A stretch of DNA of 39,003 nucleotides from Methylomicrobium sp. (lineage in GTDB: Bacteria > Pseudomonadota > Gammaproteobacteria > Methylococcales > Methylomonadaceae): assembly GCA_018333785.1 (NCBI GenBank), contig JAGXSU010000199.1, positions 1 to 39,003 of the forward strand, given 5' to 3'. Both the position numbers and the translations under genes were made by a program. The notes below the pieces were generated by a model, which saw only the letters and a program-made list of their open reading frames with translations, had not been told where the DNA came from and ran no database searches. This document shows positions 12,093 through 39,003 of the stretch, piece by piece; position 1 is the first letter of the stretch; each line of letters begins with the position of its first letter.

Positions 12093-12174
12093 GAAAATGA
12101 TCCGTCCAGAATTTCTGATCATTAACACAAAATTAAGCCTGCTTGATAACTTCAAAAGGCCGCAAAATAGGCGT

Positions 12175-16818: not shown

Positions 16819-16888
16819 GACAATCTCCCTAAAAAAGAGGGAAATCATCATTGCCCAGCTAGGGAATAAAGATTTCCCGGTGGGTAAA
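16819..16888 (-). promoter_or_regulatory. Switch-like RNA leader L4
   Basis: Segments: 1 GGGAAATC, 2 ATTCCC, CCC-TAGCT-GGG inner stem, 3 GATGATTTCCCT, 4 AGGGAGATTGTCATG. Segment 3 ATTTCCCT pairs with AGGGAGAT, one G-U. CTTTTTT follows segment 3. Confidence 0.72.
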
Positions 16889-16890
16889 GA

Positions 16891-17093
16891 TAAGAATCAC
16901 GCCGAGGCGCTTAACAGGTTGCCTTATTTAGAGTGCTGAACTGGCACTTGCTTTTGAGTTCTCTTAGAGAACTACAAAAATCCGTCTTTCCACAACACTC
17001 ATGCCAAGCATTCTGGAAAGACGGTACCGGCAGTATGCCAAATACCGTCAATGTTTTTACATTCGAAAGACGCCTGTTTTAGCACGTCTTTCG
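16891..17093 (-). repeat. Operon-head repeat, copy 1 (about 203 bp)
   Basis: First of three same-orientation copies (others at 24942 and 32346). The half nearest the leader, about 85 bp, is almost invariant. It contains the palindrome AGTTCTCTTAGAGAACT (16957-16973), the inverted pair AGTGC/GCACT, and a small CGC-YUCG-GCG hairpin (CUCG loop here). The other half has two stems: CCGTCTTTCCA with TGGAAAGACGG, and CGAAAGACG with CGTCTTTCG. It begins 9 nt past the stop of the upstream gene and ends at leader L4, so it probably combines an operon end with the next promoter. A TAAATA -10-like box is present but no good -35, which may mean an activator is needed. Confidence 0.85.
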
Positions 17094-18923: not shown

Positions 18924-20735
18924 TTAAGCAGCCAACAACAAATCTTTACTGATTCGAAAAAGCTCGGAACGCAGGTCGGACACATTGTTGATGCAGATCG
19001 AATTGTCAAACAAATGACTGGTATCGATACAGATCCCAACACCTACCAATTCAATGCCGGTCGCTTCGCAGCGGCGGATTACTGATTTGGCGGCATCATA
19101 ATCATCAGGCTCACCGTCGGTGAGTATCATGATGACCTTACGATCTTCCCTGGTTGCCATAACGCTCGCAGCGGCATACCAAAGTGCGGTATGAAGTGGC
19201 GTGCCTCCATTGGTAATTGCAGAAAACGCGGACGCATTAGGACGAACCTTCTGGCCATGCTTCAACAATGGATTGACGTTATCGGTATCTCCATGAGGAA
19301 AACGTGTAATCGCCGGATTGACACCTGAAATACCTTCAAGCGCCAAAGCCAGAGCCACAGCAGAATCCATGGCTATACGAGCCAAGGTAATCGACAAATT
19401 CGAGCTTATACGGTTATTCATAGAGCCCGACGCATCGACCAATAAGTGCAAGGCCGTATTAGGTGCCTGCTTGTGAGTTCTGCGTTCGAAAACGCGAGAA
19501 TCACCTTGCGACAAGCGAACCAATTTACGACCATCAATGCGATTTCCAGATCGTTTGTTAACAGGACGTTCATAACGACTGGATTGAATTAGGCCTTGTA
19601 AAGAAGCCCGGATTTTGCCAGATTCTGAAAGCGCTCGATTCAATATCGCATTGCCAGTCGGTGGATTACGGTTCGGATCCAACGCCAAGGGCAAATGGGT
19701 TTCAGAATCGTAACTATTTCTTGGCTGATTTCCCAACAGCTCTTGAGCTGCTTCAAACAAATCATCAGGTAAGTCATCTTGACCGGCAGAGAGCACCGAA
19801 GACAAGATTTGCGCTAATTGGTCGGCATCCTGAGATTGATCATTAGCATCGGAATGGGATGACGTTGCACCCTGTCCAGGTTGTTGATCCGTGTTGTCAT
19901 CGCCGGCATCAGACGTATCTGATTGGCCATTAGCATTATCTGCCTGTGACTGTTGATCCTGTTGAGAGTCCCCAGTATCAGAAGAGTCATCACTTTGATC
20001 GTCGGTGGAGTCATCAGAAGGATCCGATTGTCCACCAGAGTTACTTGGTGATTGTTGCGACTGTTGTTGCTGGGATTGTTGCCTAGCCTGTTCTTCAGCC
20101 TTTTCTTTCTCTTCTTGAATCATCCGCAAAATCTGATCGGCAAGCCGAACACAATCACGGGTATGACTCAAATGAGGCACATCAGACATAAGACCAAACA
20201 AACGGGTGACAGCGCCTACCGGAAAAACATCTTCCAGGAGGGCTTCAGCGGTATCAGCATAAGACGACAATGCCTTTTGACCAAGGACATCATGACGCAA
20301 ACGAAACAGCAGAAACTGTGAAAGAACACTGGCAGGATGCGGTTCGTCATCTTTTGTGACAAAACCATAAGCATCCGTTTGAACCAAGTATTCAGTCACT
20401 TTTTCCGTTGTCCGTTTTGTACCTGGATAGGGTTCTTGCATAGATTTCTCAATGCGAACGTCTTCCAGGATGTTGACAATATGCTTCCGTAGAGGATTTG
20501 TAGCGGCGTTGCGAAATTCACCAAAATCGGTAAAGCGAACGTGCGCTGCTTCATGTACCAAATAACCCCAGGCAACATCCTTAATATTGGAATCCTCACT
20601 ATCTAATGCAGGAAGGTGAATCCGATCGCCGGTTGTATAGGCATCGTCTCCACCTACCGAAACTTTGACGCCAAACTTGTTGCCCAATGCCGCAGCAACA
20701 ATTGGAAAGGCGTTATTCAAGGTTTGATTTTTCAT
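18924..20735 (-). CDS. CobT-like VWA-domain protein
   Basis: A 603-aa protein of the CobT/VWA type. Near the N-terminus is a metalloprotease-like HEAAH (61-65). From about 216 to 305 lies a Q/S/D-rich low-complexity linker. The C-terminus is a VWA domain with an intact MIDAS, DASGSM at 434-439, and LTDGEPDD further on. True cobaltochelatase CobT is replaced by such relatives in phages and mobile elements, where they pair with a CobS-like AAA ATPase, as here (23.9-24.9 kb). A MoxR/VWA-style chaperone or remodelling complex is inferred. No cobalamin genes are nearby, so a B12 role is unlikely. The start at 20735 has GGAGATTTAAACC and leader L7. Confidence 0.87.
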   Translation of the reverse strand: MKNQTLNNAFPIVAAALGNKFGVKVSVGGDDAYTTGDRIHLPALDSEDSNIKDVAWGYLVHEAAHVRFTDFGEFRNAATNPLRKHIVNILEDVRIEKSMQEPYPGTKRTTEKVTEYLVQTDAYGFVTKDDEPHPASVLSQFLLFRLRHDVLGQKALSSYADTAEALLEDVFPVGAVTRLFGLMSDVPHLSHTRDCVRLADQILRMIQEEKEKAEEQARQQSQQQQSQQSPSNSGGQSDPSDDSTDDQSDDSSDTGDSQQDQQSQADNANGQSDTSDAGDDNTDQQPGQGATSSHSDANDQSQDADQLAQILSSVLSAGQDDLPDDLFEAAQELLGNQPRNSYDSETHLPLALDPNRNPPTGNAILNRALSESGKIRASLQGLIQSSRYERPVNKRSGNRIDGRKLVRLSQGDSRVFERRTHKQAPNTALHLLVDASGSMNNRISSNLSITLARIAMDSAVALALALEGISGVNPAITRFPHGDTDNVNPLLKHGQKVRPNASAFSAITNGGTPLHTALWYAAASVMATREDRKVIMILTDGEPDDYDAAKSVIRRCEATGIELVGVGICIDTSHLFDNSICINNVSDLRSELFRISKDLLLAA

Positions 20736-21771: not shown

Positions 21772-23061
21772 TTAGAACCAGAAATCCGCAACTACTTCTG
21801 CCGCATCTGGAGTTTCAGTTTCGTCCTTTGATTGAACAGGAATCGACGTTGAAGCGGTTTCAGCGGCAACTTGTACAGTTTCTTTGACAGAAGCCATAAA
21901 GCTGTTTGCTTCGGGAACCGAATTCAAAACATCTTGTGCGACATTGTCGAGGCAAAGAGCAGCATCAACAGAAGGCGTTGCATCAAATACATCCTGTGCA
22001 GGATTGTAGTTCGAGAGGAAGTCGTCAAAACCGGGAAGATCATCGTCTTCGGTATTGACAGCAGGAGTATCAGCAACAGGGGCTTCAACAGGCGCTTCAT
22101 CCACTACTACAGTAGAAGATGAATCGAGCATTACTGCGTCGTCATCTTGTTCGTCATCAGGTTCAACTGCGGCTATAGCATCTGAAACCGAGATGGATTC
22201 CATTTGCAACAAACCACCGCCATGACGCTTGATTTTGTCCGGATCGGACAACAGCAAACCAAGTGTAAAAAGGCTGTTGAAAGCAACGCCGTTATAGGGA
22301 CCTTGTTTGGGCAAGGCATCCAAAACAGCATCGATCTTATCGACAACCGGCATACACCGATGATCAAGAAAACCGAGACTGTCTAGCTTATCCCGCATTC
22401 TCCGAAAAGCATTGAGGGATCGACCGGTAACAGTATCCTTACCGACGAAAGATCGATCGATAAGTTGACTGGCTTCCTGAGCGATTTCATGGAAAAGCTG
22501 CTCACTCATGGAATTGGTACGGCGATGTAAGGAATCGACGGCAGCCGGTGTCGCATCAGGCAATGTGGTATCTGCCTGGGGAACGGTTACGCGAAAAACA
22601 ACGTAATCAAATCGCAACTTAGCAGCTACGGATTCAACAGGCTCAATCGCACGACGAATGGCATCGCCAAATTCAGCATGGCGGGCAATCCAGTCTTCGG
22701 TGTCCTCATGATAAGTAGCTAGGAGTTGATCGCGGGCCTCGTAGAAGGTCTTCGATAACGCATCCAGCTCTTGCGTAATACGAGGAATTTCCGCCCGCGG
22801 ATTAGCAAACCCCCCGATAAAGCGTGTTCCTGATTGAAGACAAATTCTTTCCGCTTCTTTTTTGATGCGATTGAATTCTTTCAGTTTGTCGGGATCAATG
22901 GTTTTTTTGGTGCCGAGATAAGCCAAATCTTCCGGTGGAAGCTTGGAACCATCAGCTAAAACGAGATCCTCGGGTCTTAATTTTTTTGAACTTGTCCAAA
23001 GGTTGATGTCGAGTTTGACAACATCGATTTGGTCCAAAATCATTTCTGCATTGTGTGACAT
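21772..23061 (-). CDS. DUF3150-like protein (429 aa)
   Basis: The N-terminal half matches my memory of the DUF3150 family: VVKLDINLWTSSKKLRPEDL, YLGTKKTIDPDKLKEFN, AERICLQSGTRFIGGFA and helical segments around EAIxRAIEPVE. Such proteins commonly sit between CobS-like ATPase and CobT-like VWA genes on ICEs, plasmids and phages, exactly as here. Residues from about 300 on are acidic and probably disordered. The C-terminus VVADFWF resembles the SSB tail. The start at 23061 has GGAGG and leader L9. Function is not known in the family; a partner of the ATPase/VWA pair is inferred. Confidence 0.78.
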   Translation of the reverse strand: MSHNAEMILDQIDVVKLDINLWTSSKKLRPEDLVLADGSKLPPEDLAYLGTKKTIDPDKLKEFNRIKKEAERICLQSGTRFIGGFANPRAEIPRITQELDALSKTFYEARDQLLATYHEDTEDWIARHAEFGDAIRRAIEPVESVAAKLRFDYVVFRVTVPQADTTLPDATPAAVDSLHRRTNSMSEQLFHEIAQEASQLIDRSFVGKDTVTGRSLNAFRRMRDKLDSLGFLDHRCMPVVDKIDAVLDALPKQGPYNGVAFNSLFTLGLLLSDPDKIKRHGGGLLQMESISVSDAIAAVEPDDEQDDDAVMLDSSSTVVVDEAPVEAPVADTPAVNTEDDDLPGFDDFLSNYNPAQDVFDATPSVDAALCLDNVAQDVLNSVPEANSFMASVKETVQVAAETASTSIPVQSKDETETPDAAEVVADFWF

Positions 23062-23131
23062 AAAAGCCTCCAAAAAAGGTAAAGAAGAGGCAGCACACGA
23101 CCCAAGGGGCGATAGACTGCCCCTTTAGGGT
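23062..23131 (-). promoter_or_regulatory. Switch-like RNA leader L9
   Basis: Segments: 1 AGGGGCAG, 2 GCCCCT, 3 GTGCTGCCTC, 4 GGAGGCTTTTATG. GCCTC in segment 3 complements GAGGC of the Shine-Dalgarno; the pairing does not reach the AUG. The tract TTCTTTACCTTTTTT follows. Confidence 0.62.
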
Positions 23132-23140
23132 TAGGAAAAA

Positions 23141-23881
23141 TTAAAAGTAAAAATCATCCTGAGAAGACGCAATAATCGATAAATCGATTCGCTTCTCTAT
23201 CAGGCCAAGTTCTTCAGCAACTGGTCTCACCGATTCAAGATCCGTGTCAAAAAGAGACAGGGCTTTAGGTTCGAGTTTGATCTGGTTACTGATTTCAACA
23301 CCATCATCATGCGATAAATGGATGCTGATTTGGTCAGGTGATACTTTCATCATGGCCATGAACAGCAATAATGAAGAAACGCCAAATTCCTTAAAGAGTT
23401 TCCCAGATAAAGGAAGCTGATCTTTGACGATCTTCTCAGAAAAACCTTTAATCCACTCGTGATCCGGCAATAATGATTGAATCGTCTTGCTCATAGACAA
23501 AGCGTTCAGCTGAAACGTACCAATTGCTTGAGTATCGGCTAATGAAGTTTGTTTTATCTTGACTCGCCAATAGATACACAATTCATCCTGGGTAGGATGA
23601 GGGTCTTGACCTTGAGGTTTTGATGTTTGAGAAGCAGATGCGATCTTGCCATCGTCATCAATCAATACCTCGCCAATCAGTCTGTACCCTTTATTGGTTT
23701 TAGACCGAATATGCTCATTCATGGAAAGCATATTTTTATTGAAGGTCTTTGATTGTAGCCTAGTACCCGTTTTGCCCCATCGAGAGGTATAGGTACCATC
23801 ACCGTTATCACGAACAGCCCAATCTTTGGTTGAGTGATCCGGATTGGTGAAGCGATAGAGCTCAAAGTTTAACCCTGCCAT
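23141..23881 (-). CDS. WGR-domain protein (246 aa)
   Basis: Residues 1-75 form a WGR domain: ELYRFTNPDHSTKDWAVRDNGDGTYTSRWGKTGTRLQSKTF, given here by its key parts WAVRDN and RWGKTG. WGR domains bind nucleic acid in PARPs and in bacterial proteins often near AAA/VWA genes. The rest is unrecognised. It ends SSQDDFYF, an SSB-tail-like C-terminus. Its ATG overlaps the stop of the CobS-like gene (TAATG), so the two are translationally coupled and probably act together. Confidence 0.8.
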   Translation of the reverse strand: MAGLNFELYRFTNPDHSTKDWAVRDNGDGTYTSRWGKTGTRLQSKTFNKNMLSMNEHIRSKTNKGYRLIGEVLIDDDGKIASASQTSKPQGQDPHPTQDELCIYWRVKIKQTSLADTQAIGTFQLNALSMSKTIQSLLPDHEWIKGFSEKIVKDQLPLSGKLFKEFGVSSLLLFMAMMKVSPDQISIHLSHDDGVEISNQIKLEPKALSLFDTDLESVRPVAEELGLIEKRIDLSIIASSQDDFYF

Positions 23882-24858
23882 TACGCATCATCTCCCCAAG
23901 CATCACCGAATACATCTTTGGCGATCCTGTGAATAGCTTCACGTTGAGAAGGCTCCGCACGCAAAGTAAGAGATCTATCCAACGAATAAGACAGCGCATT
24001 AGGAGCTCGTTTATAAGCAATCATCAAGTTTGTCCAGCGAACCAATGTTCGGGTAGACATGGTAACGCTCAACTCGCCCGCACCATCAGTACCGCCAACA
24101 AAGAGTCGACGGATTTCGTTGGCCACGTTGATCATCTTTTCTGTCAAATTTTCCATGACAGAATCGAACGGTACGCCCATTCCCGTTAAAACTGACTTGA
24201 GAATGGATTGTTCGACGGATGCTTCGGGATAACCAACTTCCATCAGGCGAAAACGATCAAGGAAAGCCAAGTTTTGTTGCATGACACCTTGATAAAGACC
24301 TGATTGATCACCTTGGCCAGCGGAGTTGCCGGTAGCGATCAAACGGAATTTAGGATGAGGCTTGATGACTTCACCGCCGTTTTGAGGAATTACCAAAGGT
24401 TGTCCTTCGATAATATCGTTCAAACCAGCCAACTCAGACGGGTCCATCAAATCAATCTCATTTAATATCAATAGATGTCCGTCTCGTACTGCTTGAGCCA
24501 AAGGTCCGTGCACAAATGACATAGAGCCATTGACCAGCATAAATTGACCAATCAAATCGTTCAGTTCAAGACGACCATGACAGGTAACTTGATGAACAGG
24601 CCAATTCAAACGGGCTGCAACTTGGCAGATCAACGATGTTTTGCCAGAGCCCGTGGGTCCAGTTAAATACAATGCATCGCCAAGCGGATTGGAAATGAAT
24701 GTAAGAACATCACGAAGATGCTCATTGCGAAACACATATTCCTTTCTGGCTGGGATTGATGGATGGTTTTCATCCTCGAATCCCTCGGCCATCATTGCAG
24801 CTGGAGCAGCAATGTTAAAAGTTGTGTTGATTGGGAATTTTTTTGCAATTGCAGTCAT
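23881..24858 (-). CDS. CobS-like (MoxR-type) AAA+ ATPase
   Basis: A 325-aa AAA+ ATPase: Walker A GPTGSGKTS (67-75), Walker B LLILNEIDL (129-137), sensor 1 LIATGNS (about 173-179). The order and the HGRLELNDLIGQF segment match CobS/gas-vesicle-GvpN/MoxR-like ATPases. It is the first gene after operon-head repeat copy 2 and is coupled to the WGR protein; DUF3150-like and CobT-like genes follow. It probably powers a remodelling complex with the VWA protein. The start at 24858 has AGGAGAAACATC; the longer frame to 24879 is leader sequence. Confidence 0.9.
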   Translation of the reverse strand: MTAIAKKFPINTTFNIAAPAAMMAEGFEDENHPSIPARKEYVFRNEHLRDVLTFISNPLGDALYLTGPTGSGKTSLICQVAARLNWPVHQVTCHGRLELNDLIGQFMLVNGSMSFVHGPLAQAVRDGHLLILNEIDLMDPSELAGLNDIIEGQPLVIPQNGGEVIKPHPKFRLIATGNSAGQGDQSGLYQGVMQQNLAFLDRFRLMEVGYPEASVEQSILKSVLTGMGVPFDSVMENLTEKMINVANEIRRLFVGGTDGAGELSVTMSTRTLVRWTNLMIAYKRAPNALSYSLDRSLTLRAEPSQREAIHRIAKDVFGDAWGDDA

Positions 24859-24938
24859 GATGTTTCTCCTGGTTTTCAAAAAGAAAAAGGGGAAACATCA
24901 ACGCCCATGCCGGGAGAAGTTGTTTCCCCGGTGGGTAA
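24859..24938 (-). promoter_or_regulatory. Switch-like RNA leader L10
   Basis: Segments: 1 GGGGAAACA, 2 TCTCCC, CCC-GGCAT-GGG inner stem, 3 TGATGTTTCCCC, 4 GGAGAAACATCATG. Segment 3 TGATGTTTC exactly complements GAAACATCA. CTTTTTCTTTTT follows. Nearly the same as L21. Confidence 0.8.
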
Positions 24939-24941
24939 AGG

Positions 24942-25143
24942 TAAGAATCACGCCGAAGCGCTTAACAGGTTGCCTTATTTAGAGTGCTGAACTGGCACTT
25001 GCTTTTGAGTTCTCTTAGAGAACTACAAAAAATCGTCTTTCCACAATACTCATACCAAGCATTCTGGAAAGGCAGTACCGGCAGTATGCCAAATGCCGTC
25101 AAGGTTTTTGCATTCGAAAGACGCCCGTTTTAGCGCGTCTTTC
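24942..25143 (-). repeat. Operon-head repeat, copy 2 (about 202 bp)
   Basis: Same orientation as copies 1 and 3. The conserved half has the 17-bp palindrome at 25008-25024 and a CGC-TTCG-GCG hairpin. In the variable half CGAAAGACGC pairs with GCGTCTTTCG; the other stem has a wobble and one mismatch (CGTCTTTCCA with TGGAAAGGCA). It starts 12 nt after the stop at 25156 and ends at leader L10, ahead of the CobS-like gene. Confidence 0.85.
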
Positions 25144-27974: not shown

Positions 27975-28493
27975 TTAAAGGTCAAATGACGAAGACGTTT
28001 CCTTGGAAGAAACGCTCCAACCAATCGCATATAAGGCATCTCGAAGAGCATCTTCACGATTAGCAGCAATCACTTCAAAAGGATCGCAGCCGTTATCGCT
28101 CTTAACGATCCAAATGGTTTCTTCCGGTTGAGATGCGGCAAACTGAGGCAAAGCCTTTTTCGCAAACTCAAGGGCAGAATCCATTTCTCTGGATAACAAT
28201 GCCTGTGTGCAATAGAACGCGAACTGATTGGTCTTTAGCTGTTTGACGGATGAATCAGGCTCTGGAAACGACTGAACTTCTTCAGCGGAAAATTCCAGTG
28301 TTTCGCCTTCAACTTCTTCATAGTCATCGAACAGCAGCGGCATATCGCGCTTATCGTCCCAAATCACACCTTCATCAAAGGCATTGCTGGCAATTTGAAC
28401 AGCCGCGTTTTGGTCGGAAGCAGTAACACCGACAACAACACGGTGTTGATAGTCAATGGTGTAAGTGACTGCGAATTTTTTTAAATCAGACAT
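27975..28493 (-). CDS. Hypothetical protein (172 aa) sharing a motif with its neighbour
   Basis: Starts MSDLKKFAVTYTIDYQHRVVVG, an N-terminal beta domain, then an acidic linker and the helical AFYCTQALLSREMDSALEFAKKALP, related to the 153-aa protein downstream. Start at 28493 with GGAGAAACACC. Function unknown. Confidence 0.72.
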   Translation of the reverse strand: MSDLKKFAVTYTIDYQHRVVVGVTASDQNAAVQIASNAFDEGVIWDDKRDMPLLFDDYEEVEGETLEFSAEEVQSFPEPDSSVKQLKTNQFAFYCTQALLSREMDSALEFAKKALPQFAASQPEETIWIVKSDNGCDPFEVIAANREDALRDALYAIGWSVSSKETSSSFDL

Positions 28494-28567
28494 GGTGTTT
28501 CTCCAAAATGAAAAAATGGGGAAACACCAATGCCTCCAAATGAGGAAAAGATGTGTCCCCATGTGGG
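28494..28567 (-). promoter_or_regulatory. Switch-like RNA leader L15
   Basis: Segments: 1 TGGGGACACA, 2 TTTTCCTC, CCTC-ATTT-GGAGG inner stem, 3 TTGGTGTTTCCCCA, 4 GGAGAAACACCATG. TGGTGTTTC complements GAAACACCA exactly. ATTTTTTCATTTT follows. The preceding gene's stop lies in the conserved TTAACCC. Confidence 0.78.
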
Positions 28568-28924
28568 TTAATGTAATAGAGTCAGTCGACGCGTTCTTTT
28601 CAAACGATCAAGAATCGAGTCACGAACTTCTTCGGAATCGAGTCCAGTCAACGTACAGCAATTCACGAAGCTGAATGGATTCGGATCTCTGATGTCAGTC
28701 ATCCACTTGTAGATTTCAACAGCGGTTTCCAACGAGCATCGACCATCAAACAAATTCCGTAGTGAATCCTCTAAAAGACATTCGCAAATGTGCAAGATGT
28801 CTTGTTCGGACCACGAAGGAAGTTCCTCGATAATGGGTTCTGGCTTATATAACCAAAGCCATTTATCGTCAATCCAATCAAGATTGAACGTGCGATCGTG
28901 GCCTTTGAAGTAGGTTTTGCGCAT
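28568..28924 (-). CDS. Hypothetical protein (118 aa)
   Basis: Starts MRKTYFKGHDRTFNLDWIDD; tryptophan-rich N-terminal part and an acidic helical middle. Start at 28924 with GGAGGTGCACC and leader L16. Its stop codon forms part of leader L15. No family recognised. Confidence 0.68.
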   Translation of the reverse strand: MRKTYFKGHDRTFNLDWIDDKWLWLYKPEPIIEELPSWSEQDILHICECLLEDSLRNLFDGRCSLETAVEIYKWMTDIRDPNPFSFVNCCTLTGLDSEEVRDSILDRLKRTRRLTLLH

Positions 28925-28993
28925 GGTGCACCTCCAAAAGAAGATGAGGAACACATGCACCCAGTTGGGGACAGTGTTCCCCGGTGGGTTAAC
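28925..28993 (-). promoter_or_regulatory. Switch-like RNA leader L16
   Basis: Segments: 1 GGGGAACAC, 2 GTCCCC, 3 GGTGCATGTGTTCCTC, 4 GGAGGTGCACCATG. Here the complement of segment 4 is GGTGCA (with TGCACC), at the 5' part of segment 3. Confidence 0.62.
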
Positions 28994-29012
28994 AGGTGTG
29001 ATTCTTGGGTCG

Positions 29013-30065
29013 TTAAAACCAAAAATCGTCTTTAACTGAAGACATAATGTCTTCTATGGAATATGGCACGGAAGCCTTGTCTTCCTCTTTGAGCGTAAAA
29101 CGCGATCGCTCGGTAGACGGTTTCCTAAACTGCTCCAAAACAGCTGGATCAAGATCGGGATGCAATGACTTCAGGGCTGCCCTGTAATCAATGCTGCCTT
29201 GCTGTAGATAGCGACTGACACGAAGTCCGGCGCTTTCAGCGTGAGCGAAATCTCCCATCAATTGCAAAATACTGCTCTCAACGTGAGACTGCTCTTGTTC
29301 GAGCGCTTTGATTTTCGACTTGTAGTCCGAAATCATTTCCTCGGCATAGTGGTATGAAGATGCCAATGCGTTCCATTGATCGAGTTGCAAACCAGAGGGG
29401 ATAAAAATGTCTCGGTCTGGGTCTCTTTCAGGAGGCATATTGGTTTTCAAGCATTCCCAAAACTTTCTTGCTTCGAAAATGATCGTGTTGATGATCGCGT
29501 CATCACGAGGGATCGGAATGTCCAGATACTCGCGCTTGTTGAGATAGAGCGAAAGCTAAGCTCGGTCAGAATTGGCAACCAATATCTGCTGCTGAATCTG
29601 AAAGTAATAGCGCTTGTAAAGTTTGGATTCAGTCCGATTTTGTTGAACATCGCGAAAGTCTTCTTCAGATAAAAAAGCCTCTTGATCCTCTGAAGATTGA
29701 GCATCACGAAAATTTTTCTCCGTTGGCGCCTTGATTTCAACAGGAATACCGTTGTCGTCAATACCATCAAACGATGCCCGGATGAACGGATAGCCATCGG
29801 ATTCGGCACACACGGGTAACAGCATCGTGTTGTGACGACCTTCATATGCACGCCTGGCAACCGGTTCTAATCGAATACCGCGCTGAACGTGCGGATTTCG
29901 ATCGAGATTATCAGGGAGGATAAGTCCCTTCTTTTCAGCATAAAGCCGATACCGTGTCTTGTATGGACTTAACCCAAGAACAATATCGGCTTCAGAAGCT
30001 GAAACACCTAAGTTTCGCCATTGATGCCATTCGGGTGTTCTCTGGGGAATGTCCACAATTTTCAT
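29013..30065 (-). pseudogene. exo: YqaJ-type (lambda-exo-like) exonuclease interrupted by amber codon
   Basis: Read through, this is 350 residues; one in-frame TAG at 29556-29558 (codon 170) divides it. The N-terminal half has the YqaJ pattern: QRTPEWHQWRNLGVSASEA, E67, D100, E110-I-K112 and a QxxxQ helix, so the PD-(D/E)xK core precedes the stop. The frame continues for 180 residues (LYLNKREYLDIPIPRDDA) with a coiled-coil-like segment and the tail SVKDDFWF. A 5'-3' dsDNA exonuclease is the usual partner of Bet/RecT. It may be a recent nonsense mutation, suppressed, or a sequencing error; the missing residue may be Trp (TGG). The start overlaps the stop of the 56-aa gene (ATGA). Confidence 0.82.
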
Positions 30066-30232
30066 TGGAGATCCCCGGAATGAATACGAGTAAAGCGGCT
30101 TTTGCGTGGCTGGTAAATGGGTTTCCAGAATCTTTCCCGGAATACGCTGCCATGTTTACGCAAGAAAGCTGGCTTGTCGTATTCACTGTAATCCCGAGAA
30201 TAGAAAAGCGAATTTAAAACGATAGAACTCAT
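30062..30232 (-). CDS. Small basic protein (56 aa) coupled to the exonuclease
   Basis: Starts MSSIVLNSLFYSRDYSEYDK and ends RFTRIHSGDLQ. GGAGGTCGTT and leader L17 define ATG 30232. Its TGA overlaps the exonuclease ATG, so it is the leader-bearing first gene of a coupled pair. No family recognised. Confidence 0.65.
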   Translation of the reverse strand: MSSIVLNSLFYSRDYSEYDKPAFLRKHGSVFRERFWKPIYQPRKSRFTRIHSGDLQ

Positions 30233-30308
30233 AACGACCTCCAAAATAGAAAAAGAAGGGCGTCATGAAACCCAAATGAGCATCAAGGGACGCCCAGGTG
30301 GGTGAATT
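30233..30308 (-). promoter_or_regulatory. Switch-like RNA leader L17
   Basis: Segments: 1 GGGCGTC, 2 GATGCTC (seven pairs with 1, two G-U), 3 CATGACGCCCTTC (30255-30267), 4 GGAGGTCGTTATG (30230-30242). Pairing of 3 with 4 gives 12 of 13 positions, including the whole AUG. CTTTTTCTATTTT follows. Confidence 0.8.
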
Positions 30309-30312
30309 AAAT

Positions 30313-30441
30313 TTACTGCATCAAAACATGGAACATGTCATTCCAAAGTTCGGTGCAAATTTGCTTGCCAAGCATGCCGGCCAGCAAAACGATTGCGAAA
30401 AACAGATAACCAAACATTGCCAAAATTAAGTTTCTTATCAT
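30313..30441 (-). CDS. Small single-span membrane protein (42 aa)
   Basis: Starts MIRNLILAMFGYLFFAIVLLAG, one hydrophobic helix, followed by a short polar tail ending FHVLMQ. Start has GGAGAGTCATC and leader L18, as for genuine genes around it. Too short for family assignment. Confidence 0.7.
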   Translation of the reverse strand: MIRNLILAMFGYLFFAIVLLAGMLGKQICTELWNDMFHVLMQ

Positions 30442-30512
30442 GATGACTCTCCAAAAAAAGTTGAGGCATCATGAATTCCCAAAATGGGCATAAATGATGC
30501 CCATTAGGGTTG
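30442..30512 (-). promoter_or_regulatory. Switch-like RNA leader L18
   Basis: Segments: 1 ATGGGCAT, 2 ATGCCCAT (perfect 8-bp hairpin), CCC-ATTTT-GGG, 3 CATGATGCCTC, 4 GGAGAGTCATCATG. CATGATG complements CATCATG, start codon included. CTTTTTTT follows. Confidence 0.78.
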
Positions 30513-30528
30513 AACTAAGTCAGACAAA

Positions 30529-31512
30529 TCAAGCTAAAGCATCGCGTGCTTCAGACAAGTGTTGTCTATGCGGTTTGTTATTTACGGTTGCGCCAGGTGC
30601 AGCATTGTTGGCTGCATTGTCAGACACAGTTTCAGCAGCATTAGGCACCGCAGAACTTGATTGAGGCGATTTGGCTACATTTTGCGCAGGAAGCAAAGTG
30701 GCGTCAGCAGCAGCTTTAGCCTTATTGAGTTCCTGTGAGATGAAGTTCAAATCGATGCCAGTAAAGTTTTCACCAGCATAATCAAGTGCTGCTTGCCATG
30801 AGGCGTTTTCACTCGCTCTTTTGACAAGCTTTGGAAGAATGCGCTTGGCATTTTCACTGGGCTCTTGATGTGCAGCAGGATCAATAACGACTTCGGCTTG
30901 GCCTTCAATAATGCGCTCAGCTTCATCTTGGTCATAAATACCGACGAAGCCAAATGCAATACGAGAGCACTGAATCAATGACTTGTGGCGCAACATACGC
31001 TTGGTATGAGATTGCCATGGGCCGCTGACTTTGTAGGGGGAACCGTTGTTTTTACTGGTACCTTCAAATGGTGGACGATAAACCTCATCCAAGAACTCTT
31101 TGACTCGAACGGGATGGGATCGACCTTTACGATAGATCACACATTCAATCCAAGATGAGCAAGATTTGGCGTCAGGCAAATCGGTGATGACCTCGTCAGA
31201 ATAAACGAACTCAAGTCCATCCATATCGGGATGCTGATTGATGATACGAGACCATCCATCAACAGATACAACTGGAACGATGCCATTCTGCTTATCGGGA
31301 TAAGCAAAAATTTCTTTGGTGAACGGATTTAAACCGTACTGATCGGCAACGATCAAAAGAGCTGACATTTGTTCATCAGTCACAACGCCATCTTTGATCT
31401 TGAACGCGGTGGCTTTCAAGGTATCGATCAATTTTTTTTCGCCCGGAAAGTTGAATTTATCGGCGAATTTTTTGACCAGTGTATTGGATTGATTTTTAGC
31501 ATTAGCAGTCAT
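30529..31512 (-). CDS. bet: RecT/Bet-family single-strand annealing protein
   Basis: A 327-aa protein of the phage recombination protein Bet family. Visible landmarks are LLIVADQYGLNPFTKEIFAYP, VPVVSVDGWSRIINQHP, CVIYRKGRSHPVRVKEFLDE and the region WQSHTKRMLRHKSLIQCSR (split from AFGFVGIYDQDEA that follows). It anneals complementary strands, working with the exonuclease and SSB encoded close by, as in lambda Red and in SXT/IncA/C elements. The C-terminal 60 residues are A/N-rich. The start at 31512 has GGAGAAACACC and leader L19; an extension to 31560 is leader. Expected role: recombination repair and diversity of the element. Confidence 0.92.
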   Translation of the reverse strand: MTANAKNQSNTLVKKFADKFNFPGEKKLIDTLKATAFKIKDGVVTDEQMSALLIVADQYGLNPFTKEIFAYPDKQNGIVPVVSVDGWSRIINQHPDMDGLEFVYSDEVITDLPDAKSCSSWIECVIYRKGRSHPVRVKEFLDEVYRPPFEGTSKNNGSPYKVSGPWQSHTKRMLRHKSLIQCSRIAFGFVGIYDQDEAERIIEGQAEVVIDPAAHQEPSENAKRILPKLVKRASENASWQAALDYAGENFTGIDLNFISQELNKAKAAADATLLPAQNVAKSPQSSSAVPNAAETVSDNAANNAAPGATVNNKPHRQHLSEARDALA

Positions 31513-31583
31513 GGTGTTTCTCCAAAAATGAAAATAAAAAGAGGAACACCATGAGTCCAATGGGACAAATGGTGTCCCAAAGG
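31513..31583 (-). promoter_or_regulatory. Switch-like RNA leader L19
   Basis: Segments: 1 TGGGACACCA, 2 TGTCCCA (perfect stem), GTCC-CATT-GGAC inner stem, 3 CATGGTGTTCCTC, 4 GGAGAAACACCATG. CATGGTGTT complements AACACCATG exactly, start codon included. CTTTTTATTTT follows. Confidence 0.8.
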
Positions 31584-31636
31584 GAAAAGCTAAGAATTAG
31601 CGAAGCTCAAAATGACGGAGCAACGCCGTGGGTAAC

Positions 31637-32059
31637 CTAAAAATCAATGTCATCGAAATCATCATAGTTAGACGGATAATCGGCTGATTGAGAGGTTGAT
31701 GTAGATGAGTCAGAAGAAGAATTAGAGCCTGATTTAGAACCAAGCATCTTCATTTCTTCAGCGTGAAGCTCAGTGGTGTACTGATCTTTACTATCTTTAT
31801 CTTGCCATTTACGTGTGCGTAATGGACCTTCAAACAAAACGAGGGCACCTTTTTTAAGGTGATCACGAGCAATTTCAGCAAGTTTTCCAAACAGAACGAC
31901 ACGATGCCATTCCGTTTTTTCTTTACGCTCACCCGATTGGCGATCTTTCCAGGTCTCCGTAGTAGCCACTCTCAAATTGGCAATCGCCTTTTGATCTTGA
32001 GTAAAACGAACTTCTGGATCAGTTCCTAAACGGCCGATGATTGTAGATTTGTTGTACAT
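31637..32059 (-). CDS. ssb: Single-stranded DNA-binding protein
   Basis: A 140-aa SSB: OB fold from residue 1 to about 105 (MYNKSTIIGRLGTDPEVRFT, ANLRVATTETWKD, TEWHRVVLFGKLAEIA, LVLFEGPLRTRKW), a short serine-rich linker and an acidic tip ending DDFDDIDF instead of the usual DDDIPF. Start at 32059 with AGGAGATTCATC and leader L20. The adjacent bet suggests a recombination role. Stop codon is TAG. Confidence 0.93.
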   Translation of the reverse strand: MYNKSTIIGRLGTDPEVRFTQDQKAIANLRVATTETWKDRQSGERKEKTEWHRVVLFGKLAEIARDHLKKGALVLFEGPLRTRKWQDKDSKDQYTTELHAEEMKMLGSKSGSNSSSDSSTSTSQSADYPSNYDDFDDIDF

Positions 32060-32132
32060 GATGAATCTCCTAAAGGAAAAAATTAAAAAGGAGACCAAGA
32101 TACCCACAGGGAGTACAGGGTCTCCCAAATGG
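32060..32132 (-). promoter_or_regulatory. Switch-like RNA leader L20
   Basis: Segments: 1 GGGAGACC, 2 ACTCCC, CCC-TGT-GGG, 3 TTGGTCTCCT, 4 AGGAGATTCATCATG. GGTCTCCT pairs with AGGAGATT (two G-U). CTTTTTAATTTTTT follows. Confidence 0.75.
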
Positions 32133-32273
32133 TTAATTTGAAGCCAAAACAGCTTCGATTTGAGCGTGCCGGTTGGCAAGCAGGGATTTGCCGTTGTCCA
32201 AGGAATCCTTGGCTGCAGACAGTGCGGTTCCGATGCTGTAAAGGAATACGGCAATGACGATGAACGTTTTCAT
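32133..32273 (-). CDS. Small exported peptide (46 aa)
   Basis: Starts MKTFIVIAVFLYSIGTALSA, a probable signal peptide or single membrane span, followed by 26 residues (KDSLDNGKSLLANRHAQ). First gene of the first operon, right after repeat copy 3; start has AGGAGAAACATC and leader L21. Function unknown. Confidence 0.7.
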   Translation of the reverse strand: MKTFIVIAVFLYSIGTALSAAKDSLDNGKSLLANRHAQIEAVLASN

Positions 32274-32343
32274 GATGTTTCTCCTAAAAAGAAAGGGAAA
32301 CATCAACGCCCATACCGGGAGAAGTTGTTTCCCCGGTGGGTAA
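32274..32343 (-). promoter_or_regulatory. Switch-like RNA leader L21
   Basis: Segments: 1 GGGGAAACA, 2 TCTCCC, CCC-GGTAT-GGG, 3 TGATGTTTCCC, 4 GGAGAAACATCATG. TGATGTTTC complements GAAACATCA. TTTCTTTTT follows. Near twin of L10, as both follow the operon-head repeat. Confidence 0.8.
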
Positions 32344-32345
32344 AG

Positions 32346-32550
32346 TAAGAATCACGCCGAAGCGCTTAACAGGTTGCCTTATTTAGAGTGCTGAACTGGC
32401 ACTTGCTTTTGAGTCCTCTTAGAGAACTACAAAAATTCCGTCTTTCCACAGCACTCTCAACCAAGCACTCTGGGAAGACGGTACCGGCATTATGCCAAAT
32501 ACTGTCACGATTTTTTCATTCGAAAGACACTTGTTTTAGCGCGTCTTTCG
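32346..32550 (-). repeat. Operon-head repeat, copy 3 (about 205 bp)
   Basis: The conserved half is as in copies 1 and 2, with one change in the palindrome (32412-32428). The variable half keeps the stems by wobble (CCGTCTTTCCA with TGGGAAGACGG). Here it lies between the divergent rep gene and the first minus-strand operon. An additional CGTCTTTC occurs at about 32582-32589. Confidence 0.85.
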
Positions 32551-32654
32551 GTGGCCGCAATACAAAAGAGGCGTTTTTTCCGCGTCTTTCAACCCGTTGC
32601 GTTTTCGGAAATATAAATAGTATTGGGTGCACGATAGAGCCAAACGGATTGGTC

Positions 32655-33743
32655 ATGACTTCACCCGATAAACCTAAAAAAGAAGCTAAATTCGAGCCAC
32701 CAAATCAAGATGCTTTCACTTGCAAACAAATAGATCTTTTTCAGACCTTTTTATGCAACGGGGATGAGCAGCGAGAAAAGCTTTCCAATGCGATTCCACT
32801 ATGGGATTGCCTACCCCTTTATTCCGTCTCAAGGCAATGGGCGCACAAGATGAGGAAGGAAGGAAGTTTTCCTCAGTTATTGATAAGGGATAGTCTGTAC
32901 AAAGGGGGCAAAATCAGGATCGAAATTCAGCCGGCAAGGATATTGGAGAACGGCCTTGTAACTGAATATTACCCTGGGGCAAACGAAGAATTGATTGAGG
33001 CAGCCCTTCGAAAGATCGCTACTATACAAAACCACGGGTATTACGACGAGTCGACTCCTAGGTATGGCGTTAATTTTTCAATTTATCAGCTTAGAAAAGA
33101 ACTGAAAAACAGAGGGCATGCGCGGTCCTACCAAGAAATAGTGCTAAGTCTACGAATTCTGGCCCGCAGTTCGATAGAGATTACGGCGAATAACAACAAA
33201 ACCAAGATTTACGATGTAAGTAATTATTTTAGCCGATTGTCATCCGTTTCTCGTTTTGATATCGAAGAAGACCCGCATGCGCGATGGTATGTTGAATTCC
33301 ATCCACTCATCACAAAAGCCCTAAAGGCCATTGATTACCGGCAGTTCAATTACGAATTAATGATGTCGCATGATACGCAGCTCACTCGATGGCTTCACAA
33401 ATACCTTATAGCCAAATTTACCTACGCAGGAAGAGGCCAAAAATTTGAGATCCGGTACAGCACCATCAAACGTGACAGCGGCTTGCTTGAAAGTTTCGGG
33501 AACCATCGAAAAGCGATGCAATACGTGCGCAAAGCGCTAACTGAACTAGCGGACAAAGGGATTTTGGAACCGAAACTTTTGAGCCTTGACGGCCAAGAAA
33601 ATCTAATCCCATTCGAAGAAGCCAAGATTCTTGGGGAAAAAGGCCAAACCGAAGATGTTATTTACACCATCTATCCTGCGGGAAAATTTTCGAGTGAGTC
33701 CAAACAGGCAAATGCAAACCTGAACCGATTGTTGGAAAAATAG
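32655..33743 (+). CDS. Plasmid replication initiator (RepA-like)
   Basis: A 362-aa protein I take as an iteron-binding initiator of the RepA_C type. Landmarks: LPLYSVSRQWAHKMRKEGSFPQ, GKIRIEIQPARI, YGVNFSIYQLRKELKN (winged-helix-like), DTQLTRWLHKYLIAKFTYAG, and a second winged helix ending MQYVRKALTELADKGI. ATG 32655 is chosen over upstream frame extensions because homologous-looking sequence begins there; the ribosome binding site (GGATTGG) is weak. Immediately downstream are seven iterons, supporting the call. It would bind these, melt the AT-rich tract and recruit host DnaA/DnaB. The family assignment is from memory of such proteins. Confidence 0.8.
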   Translation: MTSPDKPKKEAKFEPPNQDAFTCKQIDLFQTFLCNGDEQREKLSNAIPLWDCLPLYSVSRQWAHKMRKEGSFPQLLIRDSLYKGGKIRIEIQPARILENGLVTEYYPGANEELIEAALRKIATIQNHGYYDESTPRYGVNFSIYQLRKELKNRGHARSYQEIVLSLRILARSSIEITANNNKTKIYDVSNYFSRLSSVSRFDIEEDPHARWYVEFHPLITKALKAIDYRQFNYELMMSHDTQLTRWLHKYLIAKFTYAGRGQKFEIRYSTIKRDSGLLESFGNHRKAMQYVRKALTELADKGILEPKLLSLDGQENLIPFEEAKILGEKGQTEDVIYTIYPAGKFSSESKQANANLNRLLEK

Positions 33744-34019
33744 CGGTAGGTATAAGGTACGGGTTCTCGCGCTTTTCGGTAGGTATAGAGTACGACCCTT
33801 GGTAGGAATAGGGTACGGAGGGGTTCAATGGTTGGGAAAGTAGGCATTTTTTGAAAAAGTTGTCGGTAGGTATAGGGTACGGACATCAAAAAATGCGGTA
33901 GGTATAGGGTACGGGTATTAAAAAATGCGGTAGGTATAGGGTACACCCGATCAAATTTAAGTCTGATTTTGGCTAAATCTGTGGATAACTTTTGGTTGCT
34001 CGGTAGGTATAGGGTACGG
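33744..34019 (+). repeat. Seven iterons, 19 bp, CGGTAGGTATAGGGTACGG
   Basis: Direct repeats start at 33744, 33777, 33800 (TGGTAGGAATAGGGTACGG), 33864, 33896, 33928 and 34001. Copies 4, 5 and 7 match the consensus; the others have one to three changes. Start-to-start distances are 33, 23, 64, 32, 32 and 73, several near three helical turns. Confidence 0.93.
33980..33988 (-). other. DnaA box
   Basis: TGTGGATAA on the plus strand is the exact complement of the consensus TTATCCACA. It lies between iterons 6 and 7. Confidence 0.85.
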
Positions 34020-34275
34020 GCTTAAAATATAAGGCAATGATTTATATTAATAAAAATTCAATTTTTTTGCTCTTATCCTTTTAACCTTATTTTTATCCAA
34101 AAATTATCCCTGCCGTCATTGTCTGTCGGATCTCATAATTAATGAAAAAAATCTCACAATTTCTTAAACATCCTGGCGGTTGACCGTGCCGACGGGCGCC
34201 CCAGTTATCGTGCTTAGGCGACCGATTGCTCGAAAGAAGCAGAAAAACAGCGCCTTTCACCCCGATACAAATCAA

Positions 34276-34314
34276 ATTCTCCTTGTAGTATCACCCAGAC
34301 ACAATCAGGAGAAT
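34276..34314 (+). promoter_or_regulatory. Shine-Dalgarno-sequestering hairpin
   Basis: ATTCTCCT (34276-34283) is the exact complement of AGGAGAAT (34307-34314), the ribosome binding site of the next gene, with an inner TTGT/ACAA pair. It is a simpler plus-strand version of the leader logic seen on the minus strand. Confidence 0.6.
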
Positions 34315-34319
34315 CTGAA

Positions 34320-34643
34320 ATGCAATCGAACGACGCCTCATCCTTAAACAACATCCCTTATAAACCGACCAAACTAGGTCGTCTTTTTTGGCTAGCAGCC
34401 AAAAATCTTGCCGTAGCGGATCCTGAATTCTCACATAAAGACAATGTCCGTTTTGCCCTAGCCTTGTATTCAGGCGCGTATATTAATCACATCCTGCTCT
34501 CAGATATGGTGGATTGCGTTATCAACACATTAGCCAACTATTACAAGCATGTTGGAGTCAACGATGTTGAGTTAAGGGCGCTGTTCAATGAGTTGAGAAC
34601 GGACTACGCCACCTTAACAAACCAAAAATGGGATCAAGATTAG
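34320..34643 (+). CDS. Hypothetical plasmid protein (107 aa)
   Basis: Starts MQSNDASSLNNIPYKPTKLG; helical with RLFWLAAKNLA and NTLANYYKHVG. The ribosome binding site AGGAGAAT is five bases upstream of the ATG but lies in a hairpin. It is next to oriV, so copy control or maintenance is possible, but no family is recognised. Confidence 0.7.
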   Translation: MQSNDASSLNNIPYKPTKLGRLFWLAAKNLAVADPEFSHKDNVRFALALYSGAYINHILLSDMVDCVINTLANYYKHVGVNDVELRALFNELRTDYATLTNQKWDQD

Positions 34644-34670
34644 GCTTTAGAAAAAATCATTTCAGCCTGC

Positions 34671-34875
34671 ATGAGCCGATCGATGCTTGCGCAAGTACGG
34701 GATGGAGACAATCTGCTCGTCGATCTTAGTGGGCCCGAGGTTGACTACAGAGAAGTCTGGGGAAGAGTCGAACGAGAAGAGAAAAAAGAACAGGAAGCAG
34801 AAAAAGAGAAAACTTTGGCGGTTTTCGAGAAATGCCGGTGCGATGGTATTGCGAAATGCCTTCGATTATTTGAAG
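34671..34875 (+). pseudogene. Unknown ORF truncated by IS3 insertion
   Basis: The frame starts MSRSMLAQVRDGDNLLVDLS and contains a charged coiled coil (EREEKKEQEAEKEK). At 34876 it enters the left end of the IS3-family element and stops at 34910. There is no clear ribosome binding site; ATG 34671 or 34683 could be the start. The missing 3' part is not found beyond the element. Confidence 0.5.
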
Positions 34876-34924
34876 TGGCTACACTAAACCGGACATACAA
34901 TCTAAAATAACCTAAAAATAGAGA

Positions 34925-35245
34925 GTGTGTCGAAAATGGATCAAGAAAAACAAAAAACAAAAAGTAAAAGTATATAGTGCCGAATTTAGAGAATCCTCCG
35001 TGAAGCTGGCGATAGGCTCAGATCAGCCGATCACCCAGACAGCAAAGGATTTAGGTGTTAATCCCAATACGCTCCATACCTGGATCAACAAATATAGCCA
35101 GCCAAAGGAGCCCAATAAAATTGTGCGAACCGATGAGCATCTCTATGAAGAATTGAAGCGGCTAAAGAAGGAAAACGCCCGATTGACAGAGGAACGTGAC
35201 CTATTAAAAAAAGCAGCGGCGTACTTTGCCAGAGAACAACGGTGA
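34925..35245 (+). CDS. IS3-family OrfA (HTH)
   Basis: About 95-106 residues: [37 protein letters not shown] is the helix-turn-helix (key part [17 protein letters not shown]), then a leucine-zipper region ([20 protein letters not shown]). The start is uncertain: GTG 34925 keeps the frame, while the ATG at 34936 is in another frame and stops early. The A7G run (in the LLKKAAAYF codons) is the usual -1 frameshift site producing OrfAB. Confidence 0.85.
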
Positions 35246-36108
35246 AGTACGCCTGGATCAAACAACATGAGCCCGAATTTTCGGTTAAGTCGATGTGCCG
35301 TTTCATGAGCGTTTCTCGTAGCGCTTACTATGGTTGGCTAGAACGTCCTCAGACAGCTATTGAAAAAGACGATGCTGAGTTGGTTGAGGTCATTAAGACC
35401 TTGTTTAAAAAAAGTCGAAAAAACTACGGAACGCGTCGTCTCAAGGAAGCCTTAATCAAACGAGATCGGCAGGTGAGTCGCCGTCGCATTGGCCGGTTAA
35501 TGGGAACTGCGGGTTTAGCCTGTAAAACCAAGCGCAAATTCAAAGCGACCACGAATTCCAAGCATAATTTGCCCATTGCCCCCAATCACTTGGATCGGCA
35601 ATTCACGGTGGCGCAACCGAATCAGACCTATGTCGGCGACATCACTTATATTCTTCATACACAGGAAGGCTGGTTGTACTTGGCTGTCGTAATCGATCTC
35701 TATTCGCGGCAGGTGGTGGGCTGGTCAATGGCCGAGCATATGAGGGCTAAATTAGTGAATGATGCGTTATTGATGGCCGTTTGGAAACGCAAACCCGGTA
35801 AAGGCTTGATTTGGCATACCGACAGAGGCAGTCAATACGCCTCTGACAGTCATCGTGCCCTATTGAAGGATCATGGCATCATCCAGAGCATGAGCCGCAA
35901 AGGCAACTGCTGGGACAATGCCGTCTCAGAAAGCTTCTTTCATACCCTGAAAACAGAACTGGTTCATCATCAGCGTTATCAAACCAGAGCTGAGGCTAAG
36001 CAAGAACTTTTTGAATATATCGAGGTGTTCTACAACCGTGAACGGCTTCATTCTGCCAATAACTATTTGTCGCCAGTGGACTACGAAATGAAGCTAAAAT
36101 CTGCTTAA
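35242..36108 (+). CDS. IS3-family OrfB transposase, DDE intact
   Basis: 288 residues with the rve fold. D133 (YVGDITYI), D194 ([10 protein letters not shown]) and E230 (DNAVSESFF) give the DD(35)E triad, and an HTH_21-like segment is at the N-terminus. GTG 35242 overlaps OrfA; the -1 frame is open upstream to the A7G site, so a fusion is probably made. It appears functional. Confidence 0.92.
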
Positions 36109-36133
36109 CTTTGTGTCCGGAAAAGTGTTGACA

Positions 36134-37051
36134 CATCAGTTTCGGTTGGCCACAGGGGAATTGCTGGGTTGTGCTCAGCCGTTTTCTTTGCGACTACTCA
36201 CTCCCAATCCAAGAGGATTGAATGCTATTTTGATGGAGCTGGCCGACTGCGCCTATCCGGTACTCCACGAAATCGTCGTGACCGATAACCCCTGGATCGC
36301 TTTCAAGGATGTGAACTATTCTTTTCTCGTTGGCGCAAAGCAAAGAAGACATGGCATGTTGAGGCGCGATCTGTTGCTGGAAAATGCCGAAATCTTTAGG
36401 GTACAAGGCAAAGCGTTGAATGATGTCGCTAACCGAAACGTCAAGATTTTGGTCGTCGGTAATCCAGCCAATACCAATACGTTGATTGCGATGAAAAATG
36501 CGCCCGACTTGGCGCCTGAATGCTTTTCATCCATGGCGATGCTCGACCATAACCGAGCCGTTGGATAGCTTGCGGAAAAATGCGGCGTACCTGCTGGCAA
36601 GATTCAGCGAGTGTCGGTGTGGGGAAATCACTCCAGCATGCAGTACCCGGATCTGCACTACGCGAAAGTTAATGGAGTTGATGCCTTATCGCTGGTGGAT
36701 AAAAATTGGTTCGTGAATGAATTCATCCCGGCGGTACAGCATCGAGGCGCAGAGGTTATCAAAGAACGAGGTCAATCCAGCGCTGCTTCCGCGGCGAATG
36801 CAGCCATTATGCAAATGTCGGCATGGATATTTGGGACTCGGCAGGGGGACTGGGTCAGTATGGGGGTTGCGTCAGACGGCAGCTATGGCATCCAAGAAGG
36901 ACTGGTGTGTTCGCTTCCTGTCGAAGTAAGAAACGGTCACTGCCAAATCGTATATGGACTCGATTTGAATGATTTCAGCAAAAAAATGTTGAAACAGAAC
37001 GAAACTAAATTGAGATCAGAGCGAGACGCGGTTAGGCATTTGTTGGTTTGA
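36134..37051 (+). pseudogene. mdh: Malate dehydrogenase pseudogene
   Basis: Residues FRLATGELLG, MELADCAYPVLHEIVVTD, VQGKALNDVANRNVKILVVGNPANTN, VSVWGNHSS, SSAASAANAA and SDGSYGIQEG are typical of NAD-dependent malate dehydrogenase. The N-terminus with the GxxGxxG nucleotide site, about 20 residues, is missing at the IS3 right end. An in-frame TAG at 36566-36568 replaces what is normally Gln in DHNRA-x-Q-LA. It is thus broken twice; both halves remain in the same frame. Confidence 0.9.
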
Positions 37052-37700: not shown

Positions 37701-39003
37701 TTATCCTACTGCCAACCTTAAAGCCTTGGCCGCCTCGGTCATGTTGGCCAAGGAAATTCTAACATCCTCCCACTGCCGCGTTTTCAATCCGCAATCGGGA
37801 TTGACCCATAACTTGTCGGTATCTATCCTTTCTCCGGCTTTTTTCAGCAACGCAATTATGTCGTCGGTGGTTGGTACATTGGGGCTATGTATGTCATAGA
37901 CGCCAGGCCCTATCTCATTCGGATAGTTAAAATCGATAAAGGCCTCCAGCAGTTCCATATTGGAACGGGACGTTTCAATGGTAATCACATCGGCGTCCAT
38001 GTCGGCGATGGATGTTATGATGTCATTGAACTCCGAGTAGCACATGTGGGTGTGGATTTGCGTACTGTCTTTGACCCCGCTTGAACAAATTCGGAACGCG
38101 CGCACCGCCCAATCCAGGTAAGTTTGCCAGCGCGATTGGCGTGGCGGCAAGCCTTCCCTGAAAGCCGCCTCATCGATTTGAATGATCGGGATGCCGGCAC
38201 GTTCCAAGTCGTTGACTTCCTCGCGTATCGCCAGGGCCAATTGATAGGCCGTGGTTGATCGTGGCTGGTCGTCACGGACAAACGACCAGTTTAGGATAGT
38301 GACTGGGCCGGTCAACATGCCTTTCATGGGTTTGCCGGTCAGCGACTGGGCATACTGGCTCCAACGCACTGTCATCGGTTTAGGCCGACTCACGTCGCCG
38401 AAGATGATCGGCGGTTTGACGCAGCGGGAGCCGTAGGATTGCACCCAACCATTGGCGGTGAATAAAAATCCGTCCAGTTGTTCGCCGAAATATTCCACCA
38501 TGTCGTTGCGTTCCGCTTCTCCATGCACCAATACATCAAGCCCCAGTTTTTCCTGCTCGCTGACGCAGAACGCAATGGTTTGTTCCATGTGTTGGATATA
38601 GTCATCTTCGCTGAGCAAGCCGCGTTTAAAGTCCGCGCGGGCCTTGCGGATTTCCGGAGTTTGCGGGAACGAGCCGATGGTCGTGGTCGGATAGCCGGGC
38701 AGGTTCAGCCTGGCTTTCTGTTGCCCGCGCCGCACCGGGAATGGATTTTGCCGTTGCATCAGCGAGCTGTCGATCTTTGCGAGTTCGGCTTGCACAGCGG
38801 GATTATGAATCAATGTGGATTCCCGGCGGGAACGGATGGCGTTTGCCGAAACGATTAAATCGGGTTCTGCCGCCGCCGGTTCTTCGATCGCCAAACGCAA
38901 GACTTCCAGTTCGGTCAGTTTTTGCCGGGCGAACGCCAGCCAGGATTTGAGGGTCGGGTCTAAAGCGGCTTCGTGTTCCAGATCGATCGGCACATGCAGC
39001 AAA
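37701..39003 (-). CDS. metE: Cobalamin-independent methionine synthase, C-terminal part (cut by window edge)
   Basis: The frame of 433 residues runs off the right edge; the full enzyme is about 750-770 residues. It transfers a methyl group from 5-methyltetrahydrofolate-triglutamate to homocysteine. Seen here: [44 protein letters not shown] and the zinc ligands in THMCYSEF (His, Cys), ITIETSR (Glu) and NPDCGLKTR (Cys). All are intact. The higher GC than the plasmid genes suggests a chromosomal origin. Any upstream regulatory element lies outside. Confidence 0.95.

Follow-up and report, generated by a model that had tools for sequence, protein, structure and literature searches.

An exonuclease gene (exo) on a plasmid-type element of a Methylomicrobium sp. 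is interrupted by a single in-frame TAG at codon 170. Most probably, at odds that we would put near 80%, a nonsense mutation has recently struck a redundant copy of the gene; this would be gene decay of the ordinary sort and no new reading of the code, since the stop appears recent and private and an intact second copy is present in the genome. The window, the 39,003-nucleotide stretch of DNA that was analysed, is the whole of contig C199 of a 5.01-Mb draft genome of 201 contigs, and the exo features within it are the following.

29013..30065, minus strand: exo frame of the YqaJ/lambda-exonuclease family, 350 codons with one TAG inside, recognised by profile matches
29556..29558, minus strand: the in-frame TAG, codon 170, at a column that is aromatic in 50 of the 57 relatives reaching it
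29013..29555, minus strand: frame beyond the stop, holding the end of the nuclease core and a C-terminal part, along which homology persists

Read with the TAG as X, the frame runs to a DDFWF tail followed by TAA, with no indel and no second lesion. The first 169 codons match Pfam YqaJ (PF09588; E=1.8e-23, 83.9 bits against a cut-off of 22) over profile positions 1-148 of 150. The part after the stop, searched alone, has no Pfam match, and each half separately matches phrog_434, a RecE-like recombination exonuclease (3.4e-25 before the stop, 1.2e-16 after it). With the YqaJ match before the stop and phrog_434 matches on both sides of it, exo is not a chance frame, and an earlier, sequence-only reading of this DNA was right to describe one TAG in an otherwise intact 350-codon frame with sensible sequence beyond it. 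That reading also placed all of the catalytic residues before the stop. This holds for the candidate catalytic residues E67, D100, E110, K112, Q156, Q158 and Q160, which are invariant in a 30-sequence alignment, but six of the 24 invariant columns of the alignment (P212, D215, D219, P223, W231 and G280) lie after it. The seven candidates are presumably the counterparts of the lambda active site. By its domain and these residues, the exo frame falls in the lambda-exonuclease/YqaJ family, and an intact product would be predicted to act as a 5'-3' exonuclease.

An exo match is present in 29 of 200 related genomes, at 45 places, and a TAG at only two of these, the window locus itself and a weak, 26%-identical match (24 bits) in G001, a genome of the same genus. 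The window exo has an open G001 orthologue at 96% identity. Named genomes, a set that overlaps the 200, were scanned separately, and none of 58 relatives' loci has a stop within the match. The 57 loci that reach the codon-170 column have phenylalanine (22), tryptophan (15), tyrosine (13), V, L, K, R, I and T once each, and one gap; in the 200-genome set 27 loci reach this column, and those other than the window itself have F (12), Y (7), W (4), D (2) and V (1). Tryptophan occupies the position in the closest relatives, the G001 orthologue and three further sequences. Within the sets searched the TAG is confined to the window gene, and it looks private to this lineage. Changes after the stop, polarised with three outgroups, number 10 synonymous and 4 non-synonymous in the window lineage and 13 synonymous and 7 non-synonymous in the G001 lineage, with 3 further changes unpolarised; before the stop there is one of each kind in the window lineage and none in the G001 lineage. 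These counts give no excess of amino-acid changes after the stop in the window lineage over the G001 lineage, as relaxed selection would have produced, and so the stop shows no sign of age. Such a pattern fits a young stop and would equally fit a codon that is read. The sequence-only reading had left these two open, a recent loss or a codon that is read; the private stop, the open orthologue at 96% identity and the want of an amino-acid excess speak for the first, and the suppressor evidence given below speaks against the second. In one relative the exo (G028:C1:2210809-2211806, locus L057) appears frameshifted, with two overlapping matches in different frames, indicating that exo copies do decay.

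Divergence from G001 is very uneven along the gene. Two of the 169 codons before the stop differ from the G001 orthologue, against 35 of the 180 after it (third positions, 1 of 169 and 25 of 180), and the best breakpoint falls at codon 169 if the TAG is counted and at codon 201 if it is not (2-unit interval 166-214), with a support reached by none of 1000 shuffles in either case. Decay was rejected as the source of this excess because the differences are mostly synonymous, which marks a recombination boundary. The conserved side is a tract that extends past the start of the gene.

29558..30145, no strand assigned: near-identical tract, differing from the G001 orthologue at 2 of its 588 bases, with the best breakpoint near the TAG

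Positions 31801-32000 and 32901-33500 are, like this tract, near-identical to G001, and the rest of 28102-34873 is ~7% different; judged by this pattern of differences, 28102-34873 is a recombination mosaic relative to G001.

The same genome carries an intact exo copy, 81% identical, at C164:3478-4539, with ssb and bet adjoining it. We read the window exo as the exonuclease member of a Red-like pair (ssb-bet-exo) that a methanotroph carries on a plasmid-type mobile element. A recent nonsense mutation would have changed codon 170, tryptophan in the closest relatives, to TAG, so that the product should have 169 residues and end within a core strand of the predicted nuclease fold, a presumably inactive fragment that is probably degraded. 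Bet and SSB remain, and the intact ssb-bet-exo set at the second locus could supply the exonuclease in trans. Because that set is present elsewhere in the genome, loss of exo activity from the element is plausibly tolerated through redundancy, with the C164 copy as the putative supplier. Among the literature matches listed, as titles and abstract openings, nothing concerned this amber.

The stop could instead be an error of sequencing or assembly, the true genome having a sense codon and an intact exo, and we regard this as unlikely. A private TAG, single-base in kind, within a frame whose remainder looks functional is what an error would leave, and the assembly is a draft in 201 contigs. Two other genes of the contig are, however, also interrupted by TAG beside an insertion sequence, which makes real decay likely here, and the exo frame has neither an indel nor a second lesion, although neither argument is decisive. 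The first of the two genes, 34320-34910, has its TAG at 34641-34643, aligned to a glutamine of an open 236-aa G001 counterpart, and has lost its end near an IS3, where the counterpart runs on. The second, 36113-37051, is a malate dehydrogenase (mdh) fragment with an in-frame TAG at 36566-36568 and adjoins the IS3-type element at 34925-36108; an open mdh, 62% identical, is on contig C136. Other stops met by relatives' frames in the window were judged by eye to lie in chance ORFs in the wrong frame or upstream of the true start. A frame for cobalamin-independent methionine synthase (metE) occupies 37701-39002 at the contig end, and on this account the contig seems to join the element to chromosome-type genes through the IS3/mdh stretch.

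Reading of the TAG by a suppressor or near-cognate tRNA would yield the full-length exonuclease, perhaps at a low, regulated level. In favour of this, the frame beyond the stop stays open and homologous without an excess of amino-acid changes, and all three genes of the contig judged interrupted are interrupted by TAG. A TAG is, however, one step from a tryptophan or a glutamine codon, so that three of them are presumably unremarkable and constitute weak evidence for recoding. The usual companions of recoding, absence of RF1, disuse of TAG or a stop conserved in relatives, were not what we found: RF1 is encoded (prfA scores over its cut-off), TAG is a normal stop, ending 4 of the 27 window frames taken as genes (TAA ends 17 and TGA 6), and none of the 58 relatives' loci has the stop. 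The suppressor tRNA for which the sequence-only reading had proposed a search did not appear. The anticodon CTA is absent from the 38 tRNAs found, an incomplete list (scores were obtained for 150 of the 257 candidates, and neither GAT (Ile) nor TGC (Ala) is among the anticodons), and from 12 further pattern sites, of which 11 held no tRNA and one was a known tRNA-Arg (TCT). Read-through is accordingly very unlikely, and the suggestion that the codon is read finds no support.

The sequence-only reading had also proposed that the 169-aa product might still cut DNA. All seven invariant candidate residues precede the stop and the YqaJ profile is matched almost to its end, as expected of a working, shortened nuclease, but models of the two products place the stop inside the fold. 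The read-through protein is modelled with a mean pLDDT of 87.2 and a pTM of 0.70 (30 sequences), has strands at residues 168-175 and 179-186 and a helix at 189-208, and has lambda exonuclease as its best Foldseek match (E 5e-11). Four lambda exonuclease entries align to model residues 2-211 and two LHK exonuclease entries to residues 10-211, at Z 18.3-19.7, and so the fold appears to be common to lambda exonuclease (1avq, 3sm4), LHK-Exo (3syy) and the read-through model. With this alignment running across codon 170, the stop costs the product ~40 residues of the core that it shares with these enzymes, and also the C-terminal part, a region of ~140 residues that the window frame has in addition to the lambda and LHK enzymes. 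It falls within core strand 168-175, and strand 179-186 and helix 189-208, both in the aligned stretch, are lost; a complete nuclease core is thus present in the read-through frame and not in the predicted product, which should end at residue 169. The 169-aa product itself is modelled with a mean pLDDT of 64.2 against 87.2, although from 12 sequences against 30. Nuclease activity of this product, if not disproved, is thus unlikely on these models, and we give a functional short nuclease very little credence. Translation restarting after the stop was also considered and set aside, as the first in-frame ATG is codon 210 (a TTG is codon 206) and the resulting fragment would have none of the candidate catalytic residues.

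The genes around exo are those of a plasmid-type module, as listed here.

30529..31560, minus strand: bet (RecT/Bet annealing protein), intact, with family matches and a same-genus homologue without a stop
31637..32254, minus strand: ssb, intact, with family matches and a same-genus homologue without a stop
23881..24879, minus strand: AAA ATPase (AAA_5/CbbQ_C)
21772..23073, minus strand: DUF3150 protein
18924..20735, minus strand: CobT/VWA protein
32388..33743, plus strand: divergent frame in the place of the YRD-M1 replication protein gene; its G001 counterpart aligns from 32511

That bet and ssb are intact, as first described, is confirmed by their alignment to the same-genus homologues, and the family search gave no identification for the divergent frame at 32388..33743. 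Exo relatives occur in 1127 plasmid records, the best 59.8% identical. Matches in a phage collection occur in 59 records, the best in AB571791 (38.8%), listed as Salmonella, and the others listed (39 of the remaining 58) are about 22-29% identical; IMG/VR has one exo locus, 26% identical. A phage or prophage origin was rejected, as the nearest exo relatives found are plasmid-borne. The combination that we took as the mark of an SXT-IncC-type element is present, with adjacent bet and ssb on an element that also has AAA ATPase, DUF3150 and VWA genes, and by this comparison of gene content the element is plasmid-type, with a gene order like that of IncC and methanotroph plasmids. The order ssb, bet, exo, DUF3150, VWA recurs in an IncC plasmid, where the AAA ATPase gene precedes ssb, whereas here it follows exo; exo proteins of IncC-type plasmids are ~39% identical to that of the window. 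The plasmid unnamed1 of Methylobacter sp. YRD-M1 likewise has, in the same order, a divergent replication protein, ssb, exo, AAA ATPase, DUF3150 and VWA genes, and its exo, 59.8% identical, is open. Among its genes listed there is a group II intron gene between ssb and exo, and no bet.

Among the closest known systems are s065-s066 of SXT/R391 elements and bet-exo of IncA/C plasmids, which form the Red-like pair of these conjugative elements (PMC2786100, PMC4542580). The window element resembles them in grouping ssb, bet and exo into a single block that has genes for an AAA ATPase, a DUF3150 protein and a VWA protein close by. Unlike those elements, the one described here has an interrupted exo, and no conjugation gene was found among the window proteins searched, a set that leaves out the frames 3-4238 and 4263-12155. 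Both of these frames lie on the minus strand and are very long, with at least 1412 and 2630 aa, respectively, and their G001 counterparts cross-match them. Passages of one account have s065 and s066 of SXT/R391 aiding the formation of hybrid elements, most visibly without recA (PMC2786100), and passages of the other have bet and exo expression under SetCD or AcaCD and, in SXT, a translational attenuator that precedes bet (PMC4542580). For this locus, the phage picture gives way to that of an IncC/SXT-like plasmid module carried by a methanotroph.

A non-coding repeat of ~105 nt is present in three copies in the window, each before a gene block.

32343..32449, minus strand: leader copy upstream of the ssb-bet-exo block
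24939..25044, minus strand: leader copy upstream of the AAA-ATPase gene
16888..16993, minus strand: leader copy upstream of a HATPase-containing block

A core model built from 21 copies has three hairpins, and the full leader upstream of ssb has a better fold than shuffled sequences, with z -6.2 as RNA and -5.1 as DNA. With this model 40 places are detected in 12 of the 200 genomes, a count that includes some of the copies used to train it; seven of these 12 also have an exo match, and 22 of the 29 genomes with exo have no leader match. In an alignment that was fitted to the model and leans towards it, changes on both sides of a predicted pair involve 6 pairs and 14 cells, where shuffles give 2.5 and 3.2. 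An unfitted alignment of 16 with three IncC copies has 4 of 8 predicted pairs varying on both sides; for two of these pairs the variation comes from the IncC copies alone. The leader's last predicted hairpin (32270-32306) contains AGGAG before the next ATG and may, on this folding, hide a ribosome-binding site.

Three divergent leader copies are located in an IncC plasmid before the AAA ATPase gene, the DUF3150 gene and a further gene, and have one 21-mer in common. A search of this IncC stretch with the leader model gave E values of 0.0091, 0.022 and 0.14 unfiltered and a single match, at E 0.077, with default filters; the filtered search of the whole IncC plasmid record gave no match. By blastn, the IncC leader element is found at 4788 places in 869 plasmid records. 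Rfam has nothing for window positions 14000-37500 up to E 0.5 and, for the IncC stretch, only mir-451 at E 0.34, far below that family's cut-off. A scan of viral contigs with the leader pattern found no match, and the literature matches listed, as titles and abstract openings, held nothing on such leaders. For comparison, Frpo is described as a single-strand promoter (PMC11541004). The repeat could be an undescribed RNA leader that works by controlling translation or by antitermination, or else a Frpo-type single-strand promoter, that would jointly switch on ssb-bet-exo and its neighbours at plasmid entry; this is a tentative proposal, to which we give somewhat less than even odds.

Loss of the gene is in itself of little weight, as the plasmid recombination exonuclease that would have been recently broken is a redundant copy. 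It does provide a natural case of an element that has bet and ssb, its own exo broken, with a full set elsewhere in the genome. We judge the repeated leader to be of more interest than the amber; if functional, it would be a control element shared by IncC-type and methanotroph plasmids.
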